Of a stretch of DNA of 64,000 bases, positions 17,952-25,480 are shown one piece after another (within the stretch, counting starts at the first letter, position 1; each line of letters opens with the position of its first letter). Location: assembly GCF_007751715.1 (NCBI RefSeq), contig NZ_CP036292.1:2604001-2668000 (forward strand), read 5' to 3'. The position numbers were made by a program, and so were the translations under genes. The stretch comes from Rosistilla oblonga. Its GTDB lineage: Bacteria > Planctomycetota > Planctomycetia > Pirellulales > Pirellulaceae. Below the pieces are notes generated by a model that was not told where the DNA came from, made no database searches, and saw only the letters and a list, made by a program, of their open reading frames with translations.

Positions 17952-19655
17952 TTACAGATAATACAGCAGCAGACAGACGGCTAGCAGCAGGGTGGCCCAG
18001 AGGGTCATTGTGCTGCTGGACCAGGTGCGGCCCAAGATGCCGTTTTCGTTGAACGTCGCTCGAGTGAAGTCCATGATGCCGTGGACGATCACCACCATGT
18101 CGCTGCGGAATGCGTCGTTGACGACATCGTAAACAGTTCGCAAGCCGCGGATGCAGGCGGGCAACAAGCGGCGGTAGATCCAGTCGGTGTCGAGATTCGT
18201 CGACCGCTGTTCGGCGGGATACAGCCCCGACTTCATCAACACGACAAAGGCCAGCAGTGCGAACAACAACAACTGCATCTGCGTGACCACATGCGTCACG
18301 GTGTAGGGATGGTAGTCGACCGCGTAGGGGAGCATCCGGTACAGCAGCGGATAAGCGATTCCCAAGCCGACGCAGAAGAAGGCGGCGATCGCCATCGCGG
18401 TCAGCATATTCCAAGGTGCCTCTTCCACTCGCTTGCCCGAATCGTGAGCGAAGAAAGCGAAGAAGGGGATCTTGATTCCCGAGTGCTCCATCACGCCCGC
18501 CGATGCGATCAGCAGCACGATCCAAACCCAGAACTGATGCTGTTCGGCGGCGGCGGAGATGATCATCGATTTGCTGATAAATCCGCTCAGCAACGGGAAC
18601 CCCGAGATCGCTCCGGCACCGATGATGCAGAAGAGCGTCGTCCAAGGCATCGATTTGTGGAGCCCACCCAACTCGGTAGCCTTCGTCGTGCCGACGCGAT
18701 ACAGCACAGCTCCCATCGACATGAACAGCAGCGATTTGTAGATGATGTGACAGAACGCGTGAGCCACCGTGCCGTTGATCGCTAGTTCGGTTCCGATCCC
18801 AACGCCGACGACCATGAACCCCAATTGGTTGTTCAGACTGTAGGCGAGGACGCGGCGAAGATCGTTTTCGATCACTGCAAATACGATCGGGAAGAGCGTC
18901 ATCGCGCAGCCGATCGGGATCAAAAGATCGAGCCCCGCAAAACCGCGGATCAATGAATAAACGGCCAGCTTCGTCGTAAACGCACTCAGAAAAACCGTCC
19001 CCGTCGCTGTCGCTTCGGGGTAAGAATCTTGCAACCAATTGTGCAGCAGCGGGAAGGCGCATTTGATACCTAGAGCCAGCAGGATCAAGGTCGCTGCGAG
19101 TCCCAACGGTTCCCCTTCGACGACAAAACTGGCGAACGTCAAGCTGCCGGATTGCACGTAGTGGATGATCGCTCCAGATAACAGCAGCACGCCCGAGGCG
19201 ACTTGAATGATCAGGTAACGCATTCCGCTGCGATACGATCGCTCGCTGTCGCTAGCCCAGATCAGAAAGACGCTCGACAGCGCTGTCAGTTCCCAGAACA
19301 CGAACAGCGTGATCAGGTCGCCAGCGCAACAGGCGCCGATCGCTCCGCCAGCGTAGACCAACGCGGCGATATGCTGTCGCGGATCCCGGACATGCAGCGC
19401 GTAGATCGACGACACGATCGCGGCAATATGAAACACGATCCCAAAGATCCGGCTCAGCGAATCGATCCGGACCATATTCAAGGTCATGCCGAACAGCGTG
19501 ATGTTGCCATGTTCACCGGCGGGCGTGATCAAAAACAGGGCAAGGCTGATCACCGAAAGGGCCAAGACGCCGTAGGCTTGCAGCCGACGAGCGACAAAGG
19601 GCAACACGAGGGCCCCGAGAATCATGACCAAGCCAGGAGGCAGATTAGCGATCAT
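17952..19655 (-). CDS. Proton-conducting membrane subunit, third MrpD/NuoM-like paralogue
   Basis: The last gene of the antiporter operon: 567 residues, about 14-15 membrane helices, proton_antipo_M family. The channel motif FPLLHNWLQDSYPEATATGT and the following FTTKLAVYSLIRGF carry the lysine/histidine network shared by MrpD, NuoM and NuoN. Such subunits move protons or sodium across the membrane and rely on partner subunits. It is the most NuoN/NuoM-like of the three D-type proteins here and has an extra C-terminal amphipathic helix and TM hairpin. Its start overlaps the preceding small gene by 11 bases, so it is translationally coupled. The ion specificity is unknown. Confidence 0.92.
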   Translation of the reverse strand: MIANLPPGLVMILGALVLPFVARRLQAYGVLALSVISLALFLITPAGEHGNITLFGMTLNMVRIDSLSRIFGIVFHIAAIVSSIYALHVRDPRQHIAALVYAGGAIGACCAGDLITLFVFWELTALSSVFLIWASDSERSYRSGMRYLIIQVASGVLLLSGAIIHYVQSGSLTFASFVVEGEPLGLAATLILLALGIKCAFPLLHNWLQDSYPEATATGTVFLSAFTTKLAVYSLIRGFAGLDLLIPIGCAMTLFPIVFAVIENDLRRVLAYSLNNQLGFMVVGVGIGTELAINGTVAHAFCHIIYKSLLFMSMGAVLYRVGTTKATELGGLHKSMPWTTLFCIIGAGAISGFPLLSGFISKSMIISAAAEQHQFWVWIVLLIASAGVMEHSGIKIPFFAFFAHDSGKRVEEAPWNMLTAMAIAAFFCVGLGIAYPLLYRMLPYAVDYHPYTVTHVVTQMQLLLFALLAFVVLMKSGLYPAEQRSTNLDTDWIYRRLLPACIRGLRTVYDVVNDAFRSDMVVIVHGIMDFTRATFNENGILGRTWSSSTMTLWATLLLAVCLLLYYL

Positions 19656-19923
19656 AATAATCCTCCTTGCGGCCCACGATCATTCGCAGGATGCGGCCCA
19701 GGAAAACGATCACGACAAAGGAGACGAAGCCGAACCAAGCTTGGAATCCAAACGAGGTCTCGAGGTCGAAGTGCGGATGCGGATTGGTGTAGAACAGATC
19801 GGCGACAACCAACAATCCGCAAACGATCACCAATCCGGCGATCATCGCGTTGATGTTCCGCGGCTGTTCGAACCAGCTGGGCGGATCGGTCACTCGTTTG
19901 GATTTATGTTTGGAGGCATTCAT
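19645..19923 (-). CDS. Small two-helix membrane protein of the antiporter operon
   Basis: A 92-residue product with two predicted membrane helices (AMIAGLVIVCGLLVVADLFY and WFGFVSFVVIVFLGRIL) joined by an acidic/His loop, and charged ends. I do not recognise a named family, but it is locked between two D-like subunits by overlaps of 4 bases upstream and 11 bases downstream, so it is very likely a structural accessory subunit of the same complex. Confidence 0.85.
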   Translation of the reverse strand: MNASKHKSKRVTDPPSWFEQPRNINAMIAGLVIVCGLLVVADLFYTNPHPHFDLETSFGFQAWFGFVSFVVIVFLGRILRMIVGRKEDYYDR

Positions 19924-21413
19924 TGCGATGAGACCAGCGGCAGCAAGACTTCGTAAATCGAACCGGCGGTGAAAAACAGCACGATGCTAAGCGCCGCGGT
20001 CAGGCACAGCGGCACGACGCACATCCACGGAGCCTCTTGAATCCCTGAGGGGGCAGCGTGCGGATCGGCTGTCGTTTCCTGGGGAGCCATGAAGGCGCGG
20101 ATCGGAATGGGAATCAGATAGGCGATGTTCAACAGCGAGCTGACCATCAGCGCAGCGGTCAACAGATAGTGCTGCGTTTCGACAGTGCCAACCGCCAGGA
20201 ACCATTTGCTCCAGACGCCACCACCAGGAGGCAGGCCGATAATGCTGAGCGATGCGATCAGGAAAGATGCAAACGTGAAGGGCATCTGCCGCCCCAGTCC
20301 CTGCATTTCGCTGATGTTCTTTTTATGCGTCGCCACGTAAATCGCACCGGCACAAAAGAACAAGGTGATCTTGCCGACGGCGTGCATCGCGATGTGCATC
20401 CCACCGCCGATCACGCTCGCGGGCGTCGCCAACGCGGCTCCCAACGAGATGTACGCCAGTTGGCTGATCGTCGAATAGGCAAGCCGAGCCTTCAGGCTGT
20501 CCTTCGTCATCGCGACGAGCGAAGCGGTCACCAGCGTCCCCGCGGCGACATAGGCTAGCCAGATGCTGACGCCCGTCGTTCGTAACAGGTCGATACCGAA
20601 GATGAAGACGGCGACTTTAAGGACCGAAAAGACGCCGACTTTCACGACAGCCACCGCGTGCAGCAGAGCACTGACGGGCGTGGGTGCGACCATCGCCGCT
20701 GGTAGCCAGCGGTGGAACGGCATCAAGGCAGCTTTGCCGATTCCAAACGCAAACAGCCCCAGCAAAACGCCGAGTTGTGTTTCGGTGATCTTCCCATCGG
20801 CCAAGGGCTCGGCAAGGATCCCACCCAATCGAAAGTCGAGTGTGCCGGCGATGTTCGACGTCCAAGCGATCGCGAACATAAAGAACGCAACCGAAGTCGA
20901 AAGCAGGATCCCCAAGTAGACGCGGCCTCCGTTGCGAGCCTCGCGGGTGCCGTGGTGCGTGACCAACGGATAGGTGGAGATCGTCATGATTTCGTAAGCG
21001 ACGAACAGCGTGAACAGGTTCGCGGAAAAGGCGGCTGCCAAAGCTGCGAAGATCGCCGCGGCAAAGCAGGCGAAGAACCGCGTCTGGTGCGATTCGTGGT
21101 TGCCACGCATGTAGCCCGCGGCATAAACGGTCGTCAAAATCCAAAGCCCCGACGCGACCAAGGCGAACAGCATCCCCAACGGTTCGACCGCAAAAGCGAT
21201 CTCGAACCCAGGGATCATTTCACCGATATGCCACTCGGGACGTCCGCCGGCAAAAACGTGTGATGCCAACAGGCAGGTGATGCCAAACAGCGCGATCGCG
21301 ATCGTCAGCGAAGCGGCTTCGCGCACGTTCGGCAGCTTGCCAACCAGGAAGACCAGGCCGACGCCGATCAACGGCAATCCCATCGCCAGGATCAGAAGGT
21401 TTTCAGGAGTCAT
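19920..21413 (-). CDS. Proton-conducting membrane subunit, second MrpD/NuoL-like paralogue
   Basis: A 497-residue polytopic protein of the proton_antipo_M family. I start it at ATG 21413, which overlaps the upstream mrpD stop by one base (TGATG); the longer frame adds a non-family leader. The motif MPFHRWLPAAMVAPTPVSAL, continuing as LHAVAVVKVGVF, is the typical NuoL/MrpA-type half-channel with conserved His and Lys. A conserved glutamate lies in a membrane helix at VAYEIMTISTYPLVTHHG. It probably takes the place of the N-terminal NuoL-like half of MrpA, which has no separate full-length gene here. Coupled by four bases to the small membrane protein downstream. Confidence 0.93.
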   Translation of the reverse strand: MTPENLLILAMGLPLIGVGLVFLVGKLPNVREAASLTIAIALFGITCLLASHVFAGGRPEWHIGEMIPGFEIAFAVEPLGMLFALVASGLWILTTVYAAGYMRGNHESHQTRFFACFAAAIFAALAAAFSANLFTLFVAYEIMTISTYPLVTHHGTREARNGGRVYLGILLSTSVAFFMFAIAWTSNIAGTLDFRLGGILAEPLADGKITETQLGVLLGLFAFGIGKAALMPFHRWLPAAMVAPTPVSALLHAVAVVKVGVFSVLKVAVFIFGIDLLRTTGVSIWLAYVAAGTLVTASLVAMTKDSLKARLAYSTISQLAYISLGAALATPASVIGGGMHIAMHAVGKITLFFCAGAIYVATHKKNISEMQGLGRQMPFTFASFLIASLSIIGLPPGGGVWSKWFLAVGTVETQHYLLTAALMVSSLLNIAYLIPIPIRAFMAPQETTADPHAAPSGIQEAPWMCVVPLCLTAALSIVLFFTAGSIYEVLLPLVSSQ

Positions 21414-22894
21414 CAGGGTGTTCCTCCCAACAAACCGATCGCAGCAAATTGAGCCAAGCCGGCCGAATAGACGGTCCAAACGCCAAAGACCAATGTCGAT
21501 CCAATCACCAGATAGGTCGGAATCAACATTCGCAGCGGCGGTTCGGTCGCTTGGCCCGCGATCTCCGTCGGCTCGTTAAAGTACAGCGTCTCGACGACTC
21601 GCCAGATATAAAGCAACGCCAACAGGGAACTCAGCAGCATCAAGATGCCGACCGGCCAGGCTCCCGAATCGATGACCGCCGTCAACAGCATCCACTTGCT
21701 GACAAAGCCGGCGGTCACGGGGACGCCGATCAAACCGAGGCCGCCGACGGTCCAGGCCAGCGCGGTCCAAGGCATCGTCCGCCCGGCGCCTCGCCAGTCG
21801 CTCAATTGGCTCGAACCCAATCGCAGTGTAAAGCAACCGACGACCATAAACAGACCACCTTTGATGATCGCATGGTTAAACATGTGAACGATCCCGGCGG
21901 ACAGTCCCGCTTCGTTGCTGATACTGATCCCCAACAACATGTATCCGACTTGGGCGATGCTGGAGAAAGCGAGGATGCGTTTGACATCTTGTTGATAGAT
22001 CGCAGCGAGCGAGGCGGCGAAGATGCCGACGATCGCCATCATCATCAGCCCCTTGGCCAACGGCAATTCGACAAACGCAAACTGCGGTGAGATGATTCCA
22101 AAGACGATGCGAATAAATGTGTAGACCGAGACCTTGGTCGCCGTTGCGGCGATGAAACAGGTGACAACCGAAGGGGCGTAGGTGTACGCTCCGGGCAGCC
22201 AAGTGTGCAGCGGAAAGACCGCCATCTTGATGCACAGCCCGATCGTTAAAAACGCAAACGCCACCAACCCGGTTCGCGTTTGCAAACCAACCGGCAACCG
22301 CTGGGCGATGTCGGCCATATTCAACGTGCCGGTCATCTGATAGATCAGCCCGATTCCGATCAGAATAAACGTGGCCCCCACGGTTCCCATGATCAAATAC
22401 TGAAGAGCGGCCAACGGCGCGCGGCGGGTTCGCCCCAGACTGATCAATGCGTACGACGACAGCGACGAGATCTCTAAGAAGACAAAAACGTTAAACAGAT
22501 CGCCGGTGATGCAGATCCCCAACAATCCGGTCAGGCACAACAGATAGGTTGCGTAAAACAGATAGTGCTTCGACGCCGGGATCTCGGCTTCCACGCTTGG
22601 CGGCGCGTATAGCAGCACGACCACACCGATCGCAGAGACAAACAGCAGCACAAATCCGCTGAGTCCATCGACGACGTATTCGATACCGTAGGGAGGCGCC
22701 CAATTGCCGATGTTGTAGTGAATCGGACCCGATCGAACGACCTCGGCCATCAGACCAACCGACATCGCAAAGACGGCGCAAGCGACGGCGAGAGCCAGCA
22801 AATAAACGAGCTTGCGATTTCCAATCAGCACGCACAGCGGTGCTGCAATCAACGGTACCACGATCAGCAGGACCGGCAGGTTTTGAGCGATCAC
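21413..22894 (-). CDS. mrpD: Mrp antiporter subunit D homologue
   Basis: A 493-residue, ~14-helix ion-translocating subunit. Motifs are FVFLEISSLSSYALIS, with the membrane glutamate, FPLHTWLPGAYTYAPSVVTC, and TKVSVYTFIRI, all standard for MrpD/MbhH. It sits directly after mrpC, as in Mrp and Mbh operons, and its ATG overlaps mrpC's stop by four bases (22891-22894). Of the three D-like proteins it is the one in the canonical position. It works only as part of the hetero-oligomeric complex in the cytoplasmic membrane, exchanging Na+ or other cations against H+. Confidence 0.95.
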   Translation of the reverse strand: MIAQNLPVLLIVVPLIAAPLCVLIGNRKLVYLLALAVACAVFAMSVGLMAEVVRSGPIHYNIGNWAPPYGIEYVVDGLSGFVLLFVSAIGVVVLLYAPPSVEAEIPASKHYLFYATYLLCLTGLLGICITGDLFNVFVFLEISSLSSYALISLGRTRRAPLAALQYLIMGTVGATFILIGIGLIYQMTGTLNMADIAQRLPVGLQTRTGLVAFAFLTIGLCIKMAVFPLHTWLPGAYTYAPSVVTCFIAATATKVSVYTFIRIVFGIISPQFAFVELPLAKGLMMMAIVGIFAASLAAIYQQDVKRILAFSSIAQVGYMLLGISISNEAGLSAGIVHMFNHAIIKGGLFMVVGCFTLRLGSSQLSDWRGAGRTMPWTALAWTVGGLGLIGVPVTAGFVSKWMLLTAVIDSGAWPVGILMLLSSLLALLYIWRVVETLYFNEPTEIAGQATEPPLRMLIPTYLVIGSTLVFGVWTVYSAGLAQFAAIGLLGGTP

Positions 22895-23400
22895 GGCAGC
22901 CGATCCATTTCCAAAATCTTCTCCTCATCGATCGTTCCGTAGTCTTCACGGATACGCACGATCAACGACAGCGCCAGTGCGGTCGTGGCGATACCGACCA
23001 CAATCGCCGTCAGCATCAAAACACTCGGCAAGGGATTCGAGTAGATGATCCCATCGACTTCTCCCGACATCCTCGCTCCCGCTTCGATCACCTCTTCCAC
23101 ACTCTTGCCCGTTGCGTGAGCCACTTCGGCCGCGTGCGAGGCGGCGTGTCCGGCGGCTTCCCCGTCGGCATGTCCATCGTGAGCGTGGTTCTGCACGATC
23201 CGAGGAGGAACGATCGGCGCGGTGCCGCCGTGGATCTTCCCCATCGTGATGTACAACAGGAAGACCGAGGTTTGGAAGATGTTCAGGCCGATGATCGATT
23301 TCATCAAATTGCGTCGGGCAATGACCATATAGAACCCGGTCATCATCAAAAAGATGACAACCCAGTAGTTATACAATCCGACGACTTGTTCCATATTCAC
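22891..23400 (-). CDS. mrpC: Mrp antiporter subunit C with a His-rich insert
   Basis: A 169-residue NuoK/MnhC-type protein with three membrane helices. The family core is recognisable as NLMKSIIGLNIFQTSVFLLY and PLPSVLMLTAIVVGIATTAL. MrpC is usually about 110-125 residues; the excess is an insert at about 70-117 between helices 2 and 3 that holds six histidines (H72, 74, 77, 85, 89, 95) plus acidic residues. The insert should lie in a soluble loop and could bind metal or sense pH. Coupled to mrpB (four-base overlap) and mrpD. Confidence 0.93.
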   Translation of the reverse strand: MNMEQVVGLYNYWVVIFLMMTGFYMVIARRNLMKSIIGLNIFQTSVFLLYITMGKIHGGTAPIVPPRIVQNHAHDGHADGEAAGHAASHAAEVAHATGKSVEEVIEAGARMSGEVDGIIYSNPLPSVLMLTAIVVGIATTALALSLIVRIREDYGTIDEEKILEMDRLP

Positions 23401-23834
23401 AGAACGTGTTTCCTTCCCGCAAACGTGTAGAAGATCATCGTCATCACCGCGGTCACCGTGATCCCTACACCAAGCTCCACAACAAAGATCCCCAAGTGTT
23501 GGCCATGCGGCAGGATGCCGGGCAACAGATGGTGATCGAGGACTTCATAGTCGAGGAACTTTCCGCCCAACAAGATGGTGGTGATCCCCGTCCCCGCGTA
23601 GATCAAGACGCCCAACGCCATCATCTTTTCAACGGCCCAAGCTGGAACGACACGCTGCACCGCTTGCAGTCCGAAGACCAAGCCGTACAGGATCAACGCT
23701 GCAGCCAAGATCACGCCGGCTTGGAAGCCGCCGCCGGGGCCAAAGTCGCCGTGGAATTGAACGTAGAAACCAAACAACAGGATGTAGGGAATCAGTAGTT
23801 TGGTGACGACTCGAATGATCGGAAACGCAATCAT
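23397..23834 (-). CDS. mrpB: Mrp antiporter subunit B (MnhB domain)
   Basis: A 145-residue, four-helix membrane subunit. The ATG at 23834 gives MIAFPIIRVVTKLLIPYILL and overlaps the upstream gene by four bases (23831-23834); the much longer open frame reads through that gene and is not credible. The family motif GDFGPGGGFQAGVILAAALI is intact, as is the final helix pair GIFVVELGVGITVTAVMTM. It corresponds to MbhF of archaeal membrane-bound hydrogenases. Confidence 0.94.
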   Translation of the reverse strand: MIAFPIIRVVTKLLIPYILLFGFYVQFHGDFGPGGGFQAGVILAAALILYGLVFGLQAVQRVVPAWAVEKMMALGVLIYAGTGITTILLGGKFLDYEVLDHHLLPGILPHGQHLGIFVVELGVGITVTAVMTMIFYTFAGRKHVL

Positions 23835-24382
23835 TGGGAGACAGCCTCCCGTTCGGGTTCGTCTTTCTCTTTTCGTAAGATCAGCAGCACCGCGATACCA
23901 GCGGTCAAAACAACCGTCGTTTCGCCAAGCGTATCGTAACCGCGATAGCTGGCCAAAACGGAGGTGATCACGTTCGGCAAGCCGTGCATGTCGACTTGCG
24001 ATTTTTCGACAAACGATGGCCGCGGATGCAGGTGAATCGGATCGTTGGGATCGCCAAAATGAGGCATGTCCAGCGTGCCGTAGACCAACGCACAACCGGT
24101 GATCGTGACAACCGTCAACGGCACCAGGGCAGGCTTGCGACGGCCGGCGTCGCTGGGACCGACCAGGACCAATGTGCTGAGCATCAGGACGGTCGAGATC
24201 CCCGCGCCAACAGCAGCTTCGGTAAACGCGACGTCGGGCGCGTCGAGGATCAGCATCCAACTGGCGCTAAGAAAACTGTAGATCCCCGTGAACATGATCG
24301 CTGCCCACAGATCGCGGATCCGCGCGACAGTGACCGCGGTCGCGGCGAGCATTGCGAGAATGGTAAAGACGATCAGATTCAT
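23831..24382 (-). CDS. MbhD/MbhE-like fusion (C-terminal part of MrpA)
   Basis: A 183-residue protein. The first half is DUF4040/MbhD, with the diagnostic DAPDVAFTEAAVGAGISTV; the second half is MbhE-like, with YRGYDTLGETTVVLTAGIAV. In standard Mrp antiporters these two domains form the C-terminal end of MrpA, after the NuoL-like domain; in Mbh hydrogenases they are separate genes. Here they are fused to each other but separated from any NuoL-like domain, which supports an Mbh-style organisation. The ATG at 24382 overlaps mrpG's stop by four bases. Confidence 0.93.
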   Translation of the reverse strand: MNLIVFTILAMLAATAVTVARIRDLWAAIMFTGIYSFLSASWMLILDAPDVAFTEAAVGAGISTVLMLSTLVLVGPSDAGRRKPALVPLTVVTITGCALVYGTLDMPHFGDPNDPIHLHPRPSFVEKSQVDMHGLPNVITSVLASYRGYDTLGETTVVLTAGIAVLLILRKEKDEPEREAVSQ

Positions 24383-24714
24383 ACTTCCGTTCCCGAGCTT
24401 CCATCGCGTGGTGGGGAATCCAACACAGGCTTCAACCCATGTGTGACGGCGGACCGCGCCAACGCGTGGCACGAACTGGGGCTGGTCACCAGTAAGAAGA
24501 ACAAGATCATTATCAACTTCACGGCGGCGAGACTTAGCCCTACTTGGAAGACCAGTCCCAACAAGATCGCTCCGGCCCCCATCGTGTCGGTGATTCCAGC
24601 GCCATGCAGTCGCGAGAAGAATTCGGGCAAGCGGACGATCCCGATTCCACCGACGATCGAAAAAAAGCCACCGATCAACATCAGGGCCCAGCTGAGGATA
24701 TCCAACGCGATCAT
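24379..24714 (-). CDS. mrpG: Mrp antiporter subunit G
   Basis: A 111-residue MnhG-family protein with three helices. The motif GIGIVRLPEFFSRLHGAGIT is characteristic, followed by MGAGAILLGLVFQ. The hydrophilic C-terminal tail (SSCHALARSAVTHGLKPVLD) resembles MrpG tails. Four-base overlaps at both ends bind it to mrpF and the MbhD/E gene. Confidence 0.94.
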   Translation of the reverse strand: MIALDILSWALMLIGGFFSIVGGIGIVRLPEFFSRLHGAGITDTMGAGAILLGLVFQVGLSLAAVKLIMILFFLLVTSPSSCHALARSAVTHGLKPVLDSPPRDGSSGTEV

Positions 24715-24992
24715 AGCTCGGTCCCCTCGCGGCTGAAGCTGCCGTATTCGGTGAATCGCAGCAGGGCGACCATCCCGATGAAGTTCATCAGGCTGTAGAG
24801 GAGTGCGAGGTCGAGAAAATCACCGCGTTCGGTGGCGACATCGACAACGGAAATCAGCAGAACGGTTTTTGTTCCGACCATGTTCAGCGCCAGCACGCGG
24901 TCGAAAACGGTTGGGCCGAGCATCGCACGGATCAGAGCCAACGCCATCGTGATCAGGATCGCGATCGATGTTACCAGGAAGATGCCGGTCAT
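24711..24992 (-). CDS. mrpF: Mrp antiporter subunit F
   Basis: A 93-residue three-helix protein of the MrpF/PhaF family. The conserved segment RAMLGPTVFDRVLALNMVGT is present, as is the acidic DVATERGDFLDLALLYSLMN. The ATG at 24992 follows the mrpE stop by five bases; the open frame to 25016 would overlap mrpE and adds nothing family-like. Confidence 0.93.
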   Translation of the reverse strand: MTGIFLVTSIAILITMALALIRAMLGPTVFDRVLALNMVGTKTVLLISVVDVATERGDFLDLALLYSLMNFIGMVALLRFTEYGSFSREGTEL

Positions 24993-24997
24993 GATCG

Positions 24998-25480
24998 TTA
25001 CTTCTCCAATGCGCAAACGCGGCGATCCATTTCGCCGGAGAGGTCTTCGGCGGCCCCTTCAAACGACAAGGCATGGACCAGAATCGAATTGCCTTCGACG
25101 CGAACGGTCACCGTTCCGGGAGTCAGGGTGATCGAGTTGGCGAGAATAACGCGGCCCAACTCGGTCTTTTGATTCGCCGAAACGCGGATCATGCTCCGTT
25201 GCAGCGGCATTTTGGGTGACAGGATGATCCGTGTGACTTCCATGTTCGACTGAACGATCTCTTTGATCAGCCACGGCGCGTAGGAGGTGAACGGTCGCAG
25301 GCCCAGATGAGCCGGCGCCCCTTCCTCGTCGACGATCTTCATCCGTCGCGAGATCGCCACTGAAATCAAACACGACCCAACTCCCAAAGCGATCAGGAAG
25401 GGATCGTCAAAGTGCCCCGACCACAACAACCAGGTTGCGAACAAGGCGATGCTGAGAGTGATGATAAACAGGTATTTCAC
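24998..25480 (-). CDS. mrpE: Mrp antiporter subunit E
   Basis: The first gene of the operon, encoding an MrpE/MnhE-type protein: N-terminal helices (IITLSIALFATWLLWSG and FLIALGVGSCLISVAISRR), then a soluble domain with PWLIKEIVQSNMEVTRIILS and SITLTPGTVTVRVEG, which are family motifs. The start is uncertain. GTG 25480 gives 160 residues, the usual family length; ATG 25573 gives 191 residues with an unfamiliar leader. Neither has a strong ribosome site. MrpE is needed for assembly of the antiporter. The 400-odd bases between it and the divergent gene at 25898 should hold the operon promoter. Confidence 0.88.
   Translation of the reverse strand: MKYLFIITLSIALFATWLLWSGHFDDPFLIALGVGSCLISVAISRRMKIVDEEGAPAHLGLRPFTSYAPWLIKEIVQSNMEVTRIILSPKMPLQRSMIRVSANQKTELGRVILANSITLTPGTVTVRVEGNSILVHALSFEGAAEDLSGEMDRRVCALEK

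Follow-up and report, generated by a model that had tools for sequence, protein, structure and literature searches.

A stand-alone Group 3 Mrp cluster with an extended D2-X-D3 arm in Rosistilla oblonga

What is the function of a gene cluster that combines the cation-module subunits of an Mrp or Mbh complex with three different antiporter-like subunits and no redox module? This question was raised by a locus of Rosistilla oblonga in the window analysed here (64,000 nucleotides, positions 2,604,001 to 2,668,000 of contig NZ_CP036292.1). The results suggested that the locus probably encodes a Group 3 cation/proton antiporter that stands alone and has three pumps, with its membrane arm clamped by a lateral helix.

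Gene order and relatives of the cluster

Translation and Pfam gave ten co-directional genes on the minus strand (25480-17952) in the order E-F-G-(MbhD/E)-B-C-D1-D2-X-D3. The features were as follows.

24998..25480, minus: MrpE/MbhA-like subunit, 160 aa, GTG start (PF01899 1.7e-30; best NCBIfam match PRK12652 E subunit)
24711..24992, minus: MrpF/MbhB-like subunit, 93 aa (PF04066 3.4e-15; alignments to five solved homologues)
24882..24884, minus: F subunit codon 37 (Asn), equivalent to Asp38 of B. pseudofirmus MrpF and Asp35 of A. flavithermus
24379..24714, minus: MrpG/MbhC-like subunit, 111 aa (PF03334 6.1e-24; TIGR01300 above cut-off)
23831..24382, minus: MbhD/MbhE fusion, 183 aa, equivalent to the MrpA C-terminal domain (PF13244 and PF20501; NF009159 206.7 bits, cut-off 141)
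23397..23834, minus: MrpB/MbhF-like subunit, 145 aa, PGGGF gate motif (PF04039 5.7e-30; NF009162 194.8 bits, cut-off 120)
22891..23400, minus: MrpC/NuoK-like subunit, 169 aa (PF00420 1.1e-22; best solved match MBS subunit G)
21413..22894, minus: D1, MrpD/MbsH-like antiporter subunit, 493 aa, GTG start (PF00361; MbsH 242 bits)
19920..21413, minus: D2, NuoL/MrpA-N-like antiporter core without lateral helix, 497 aa (PF00361 and PF00662)
19645..19923, minus: X, two-helix protein, 92 aa (no Pfam or NCBIfam family)
17952..19655, minus: D3, antiporter subunit with NuoL/MrpA-like C-terminal lateral helix and final TM, 567 aa (NF009310 735 bits, cut-off 564)
18054..18185, minus: D3 residues 491-534, predicted amphipathic lateral helix HL, 44 residues (AlphaFold2 secondary structure)
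17958..18017, minus: D3 residues 547-566, final transmembrane helix, TM16 equivalent (AlphaFold2 model)

E and F were separated by 5 bases. The junctions F/G, G/DE, DE/B, B/C, C/D1 and D2/X overlapped by 4 bases, D1/D2 by 1 base and X/D3 by 11 bases. Pfam matched MNHE, MrpF, PhaG/MnhG, MbhD and MbhE (in one protein), MnhB, Oxidored_q2 and three PF00361 proteins, and found neither full-length MrpA nor redox genes within the cluster. A preliminary description of this DNA had given the coordinates, strand, order and overlaps correctly, as seen from translation, Pfam and junction counts, and its Mbh-type order without a hydrogenase or Nuo gene in the cluster was confirmed by Pfam. Several cluster subunits are already covered by curated NCBIfam families, which exist for D3 (NF009310), MbhD/E and B. 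The MrpC-like subunit (22891-23400) carried a His/Ala-rich insertion of about 45 residues between helices 2 and 3, possibly metal- or proton-binding.

The single MrpA with NuoL-like and MbhD/E domains of Groups 1 and 2 was absent from the cluster. No full-length mrpA was present and mrpD copies accompanied mrpB, C, E, F and G, as in Group 3 Mrp (CPA3). A stand-alone Group 3 Mrp with the core order and no redox module is known from P. furiosus, Pf1147-53 (mrpEFGBB'CD) (PMC8415708). It shares with the cluster the core order, the fused MbhD/E (as 'MrpB') and the lack of MrpA and of a redox module. It differs in having a single D and no D2, X or D3, and therefore no lateral helix. P. furiosus MBS and MBH (6u8y, 6cfw) share the order A-H, with MbsH closest to D1 and MbsH' sister to D3, but have a redox arm attached and one or two antiporter subunits. 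Canonical seven-subunit Mrp (B. pseudofirmus 7qru, A. flavithermus 6z16, Dietzia 7d3u) has homologous E, F, G, B, C and D subunits and MrpA C-terminal domain, and its MrpA lateral helix is resembled by the D3 C-terminus. In contrast to the cluster, its MrpA is one protein, it has two antiporter subunits and a shorter lateral helix, and the MrpF Asp is kept.

GTDB genomes were scanned with a D3 profile, which gave at least 575 confirmed relatives, and the best 80 were examined as loci. Among these 80, every complete locus (66 of 66) had the identical order, MbhD/E being fused to B in 10, so the arrangement is not due to chance. The exact ten separate genes occurred in order in 56 of the 66 loci uncut by a contig end. 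The remaining 10 lacked a separately scored B, and their MbhD/E had about 335 aa, the length of the MbhD/E-B fusion family NF009161. Another 13 of the best 80 were cut by contig ends and agreed with the order as far as present. One locus (L051) had D2-X-D3 alone, though its upstream DNA was present.

The hosts of these best 80 belonged to Planctomycetota, Alpha-, Beta- and Gammaproteobacteria, Nitrospirota, Gemmatimonadota, Thermodesulfobacteriota and Myxococcota. The cluster is widespread and spans at least six bacterial phyla. Its distribution is patchy, since D3 occurred in 26 of 149 genomes sampled from the phylum and was not found in the one same-family genome or the six same-class genomes. 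Haloarchaea had a nine-gene version (L142, L143) with the order E-F-G-DE-B-C-D1-D2-D3 and the same three D clades, in which X was not found, E was longer and D2 had a long His-rich loop. A fusion of X into this longer D2 was considered and rejected, as no X match was obtained and the extra length was the His-rich loop.

In Ca. Nitrospira alkalitolerans, a Group 3 Mrp with two NuoM/L-like genes after mrpD was described from annotation (PMC7784846); it is very probably the same kind of cluster. The part of that paper dealing with it is at annotation level and does not mention X or helix length. A Nitrospira locus among the relatives (L060) had all ten genes in order. Thus the cluster belongs to Group 3 as a conserved Mrp that stands alone, and its distinctive part is the D2-X-D3 extension of its arm. 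The core order is known as Group 3, and the extended arm was partly noted before in annotation. The neighbourhood survey that the preliminary description had proposed bore out the ten-gene order; the view that the type is unusual was not upheld, because the order recurred in all complete loci of the best 80 and because the Group 3 order and, as far as its annotation goes, the Nitrospira cluster had already been reported. No functional study of the ten-gene type was found in the open-access literature searched.

Clustering of the flanking genes gave no partner shared by all loci. One locus (L119, 8592-14015) had D1-D2-D3 without adjacent E-to-C genes, the F gene of that genome lying on a separate contig. 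Two others (L120, 13844-16088; L136, 8048-10109) had X-D3 pairs with no recognisable D2 or other Mrp genes nearby. At L039, L043, L047, L056 and L079, a CoxG-like gene began 4-27 bases past D3 and was followed by CoxS- and CoxL-like genes; further alphaproteobacterial loci likewise had form II cox genes downstream of D3. The one CoxL sampled (L039) had AYRGAGR, typical of form II. These sequences suggest that the ten-gene Mrp is operon-linked to a form II CO-dehydrogenase-type enzyme in some Alphaproteobacteria.

Cation path and other ion pumps of the genome

The R. oblonga genome is a single 7.25 Mb contig with 99.85% completeness. It had seven PF00361 genes: three in the cluster, two in a canonical Mrp and two in a Dab-like pair. 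The canonical seven-gene Mrp A-G operon (G000:C1 3759635-3765500, at 3.76 Mb) provided a built-in comparison for the ten-gene cluster. At about 645 kb (L028, G000:C1 641000-647500), a 1,071-residue open frame was followed by two PF00361 proteins; judging from size and neighbours, this is probably a DabA/DabB-like inorganic-carbon system. Na+-NQR subunit A was found with 562 bits. Full canonical MrpA was not matched in 20 of 21 other D3-carrying planctomycetes, several with incomplete genomes, when this genome's MrpA was the query (E <= 1e-70). The ten-gene cluster may therefore be their only Mrp.

The residues of the cation path were partly kept. The MbhD/E fusion had E55 (MbhD type), and the conserved Glu of its DTLGE motif was the equivalent of MrpA Glu780. 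B. pseudofirmus MrpB Phe41 had an equivalent in the B subunit, and MrpB Asp121 was replaced by a conserved Glu, as judged via the 6z16 alignment. Gly stood at the MrpA Glu687 position, and a Glu preceded it by one turn, as in MbhD. In the alignment, the paired MrpC histidines named in PMC7419157 were not in place in the C subunit. The MrpF Asp38 position was Asn (N37) in the R. oblonga cluster and Asn in 84 of 86 relatives. Characterised Mrp, MBH and MBS have Asp at this position, as seen in alignments to five solved homologues, and so does the genome's own canonical MrpF. The Asp35-to-Leu replacement inactivates A. flavithermus Mrp, and Glu and Asn replacements of MrpF Asp have mild effects in B. 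subtilis (PMC7419157). Asn alone is thus no argument for inactivity. With the MrpC His and MrpA Glu687 also not kept, cation handling may differ from that of characterised Mrp.

These differences in MrpF and MrpC are consistent with an antiporter for another ion (K+, Ca2+), or with inorganic-carbon-linked transport, in place of Na+. Such an antiporter would overlap in architecture with the three-pump reading, the T. roseum group 1 Mrp is a Ca2+/H+ antiporter (PMC5703873), and a canonical Mrp is already present in the genome. However, the cluster retains equivalents of Glu780 and Phe41, the genus or sample names of many relatives are marine, and sequence alone cannot tell which ion is carried. 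This alternative is considered unlikely.

Antiporter-like subunits, lateral helix and protein X

The phylogeny of 65 D-like proteins was calculated by IQ-TREE, with solved-structure references entered as partial sequences from printed alignments. D1, D2 and D3 each formed one separate clade with support of 100/99 or better, and each clade had bacterial and haloarchaeal members. On this tree, D1, D2 and D3 are three ancient clades, and an origin of D2 or D3 as a recent duplicate was rejected. D2 was sister to NuoL and MrpA-N (100/98). D3 was sister to P. furiosus MbsH' (100/95), a long branch. D1 lay near MbhH, MbsH and NuoN with weak support, within its own clade (100/99), and its best solved match was MbsH. 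The preliminary description's view of D2 as NuoL-like was therefore borne out, and D2 and D3 fell in clades of their own outside ordinary MrpA or MrpD. Its derivation of the MrpA parts from MbhD/E and D2 stood for the NuoL-like part, as D2 grouped with MrpA-N, but not for the C-terminus, as the MrpA lateral and final helices match D3 and not D2.

The proton-path residues were nearly invariant in D1 (E141, K223, K254, K400), D2 (E141, K227, H252, K403) and D3 (E122, K198, K229, K362). The TM5 Glu, TM7 Lys, TM8 Lys (H252 in D2) and TM12 Lys were kept across the three subunits. Of 101 D3 homologues, 7 had Asn and 2 had Ser or Cys in place of the TM7 residue K198; in those lineages D3 may thus be an altered or inactive pump.

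The AlphaFold2 single-chain model of D3 (pLDDT 82.4, pTM 0.80) showed an antiporter core followed by C-terminal helices: helix 453-476, taken as TM15, then the 44-residue helix 491-534 and the final TM 547-566. The top Foldseek matches were MrpA 7qru_A (E 1.1e-22) and NuoL 9g83_L (E 2.7e-19). Helix length was counted between two motifs, starting at an aromatic anchor of W-x-Y type and ending at the Gly of an N-G-x-L type motif ahead of TM16. The MrpA helix had 15-24 residues, with a median of 21 (11 measured, this genome's MrpA entered twice). The NuoL helix had 40-50 residues in 14 of 17, with a median of 49. Three planctomycete NuoL (L176, L189, L193) had 73-75 residues, the length expected for a four-pump complex I. 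A four-pump complex I was reportedly described by Chadwick et al. 2018. In the ten-gene family, the D3 helix had 45 residues in 27 of 28 sequences, including R. oblonga, and 51 in one; its sequence varied while its length stayed constant. A helix of complex-I length (45, versus 21 for MrpA and 49 for NuoL) points to a three-pump array. A few distant planctomycete D3, such as those of L123 and L130, were longer. In L123, L124, L126 and L130 the C-terminal segment of D3 was much extended (anchor-to-end length about 112 residues for L123 and L130), which the three-pump ruler does not explain.

Protein X belonged to a conserved family without a name, with the motif H.HF..E...GF...yGF...(A)K.LR....R.EDYY, and was present in all 66 complete loci of the best 80. 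Lying strictly between D2 and D3, it may serve a structural purpose or act at an interface.

D2-X-D3 of the same clades also occurs in the rhizobial green complex I (S. meliloti pSymA nuo2; PMC9040806), where it replaces NuoL in the order J-K-D2-X-D3-M-N-A-(B)-C-D-E-F. That enzyme is a full NADH dehydrogenase with NuoM and NuoN and, unlike the cluster, has no E-F-G-B cation module. Similar Nuo contexts, with D2 and/or D3, were found in two planctomycetes (G021, G079). In the IQ-TREE analysis, the D2 and D3 clades also took in the corresponding proteins from the Nuo clusters of S. meliloti and G021, so the module is common to antiporter and dehydrogenase. The rhizobial and G021 D3 helices had 73-74 residues, about 28 longer in the green complex I than in the cluster, and an extra pump is accompanied by a 26-residue HL insert (PMC9040806). 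By this length argument, which is strong, D3 is predicted to have three-pump length in the cluster and four-pump length in the green complex I.

It is quite improbable that the cluster is an ordinary Na+/H+ antiporter that works like a seven-subunit Mrp through only two active proton paths, with D2 and D3 as accessories. In favour of this are the subunits E, F, G, B, C and D1, all of ordinary Mrp/Mbh kind, the stand-alone P. furiosus Mrp, which functions with a single D (PMC8415708), and the TM7 Lys of D3, which is Asn or Ser in some relatives. Nevertheless, D2-X-D3 occurred in every complete locus of the best 80, which had been chosen by their D3; hardly any variation is seen in the charged residues of D2 and D3; and the lateral helix keeps its length despite varying sequence.

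Redox partner and proposed function

PF00146 (NuoH, HycD, MbhM type) was absent from the whole R. oblonga genome, while the same search was positive for 11 of the 14 genomes used as controls. This rules out complex I and group-4 hydrogenases as partners, and a remote redox partner encoded elsewhere in the genome was rejected. Thus the preliminary description's stand-alone reading was supported for this genome, which has D2-X-D3 and, unlike the green complex I, no Nuo membrane genes or NuoH-type gene. Among the best 80 genome-contig loci, no Nuo or hydrogenase gene was found beside the cluster except on one Gemmatimonadota contig (L057, 297-13324), where the whole ten-gene set lies between nuoK-L-M and nuoN. 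Proximity to catalytic genes, which the preliminary description had named as counter-evidence if seen in close relatives, was thus seen in part: in L057 and in the Nuo operons of rhizobia and some planctomycetes with D2-X-D3 homologues, all of them diverged relatives. These Nuo operons, L057 and the cox genes past D3 would fit a detached membrane arm of a redox enzyme with catalytic subunits encoded elsewhere, but this is very improbable, and largely refuted for R. oblonga, as the obligatory redox-arm link is missing from the genome and no Nuo or hydrogenase neighbour was found in the other 79 loci.

The three-pump antiporter is supported by the subunit families, the order in 66 of 66 loci, the lack of PF00146, the Na+-NQR, the D residues and the helix ruler. 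It is weakened by the MrpF Asn, the MrpC His and Glu687 changes, the D2-X-D3 homologues in complex I and the long-tailed planctomycete D3. In the proposed mechanism, the subunits would assemble as one complex, with the three antiporter-like subunits in line in the membrane arm: D1 beside MrpC, then D2, and D3 at the far end. The lateral helix of D3 would clamp the row as that of NuoL does in complex I, and X may hold a structural place in it. The cation (Na+ or K+) would pass through the E-F-G-B-MbhD/E-C module and protons through D1, D2 and D3, the two flows being coupled electrostatically along the central charged axis. This coupling is proposed by analogy with Mrp, for which two antiporter subunits and 2 H+ per Na+ are supported (PMC9568556). 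With three proton paths, a higher H+ : cation ratio than in two-pump Mrp would be possible. In a cell with Na+-NQR and without complex I, the cluster would interconvert proton and sodium gradients. The normal direction would be export of Na+ (or K+) paid by H+ entry, and in reverse a proton-motive force could be made from the sodium gradient.

A further-reaching version of the three-pump reading is put forward tentatively and is rather doubtful: a redox-free complex-I-like machine moving about 3 protons per cation, with a cation path unlike all characterised Mrp, X as a new structural subunit, and a D2-X-D3 module that has passed in one piece between antiporters and complex I.

The helix lengths of about 21, 45-49 and 73-75 residues for 2, 3 and 4 pumps would form a sequence rule from which the number of pumps in an unknown complex could be predicted. 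A central open question of complex I is how a distant driving reaction is linked to proton flow through a row of antiporter-like subunits. If the three-pump antiporter is true, a three-subunit complex without redox chemistry, driven by ion gradients alone, would isolate this coupling question. If stoichiometry rises with pump number, it would help explain how sodium and proton gradients are balanced in Na+-NQR bacteria without complex I.
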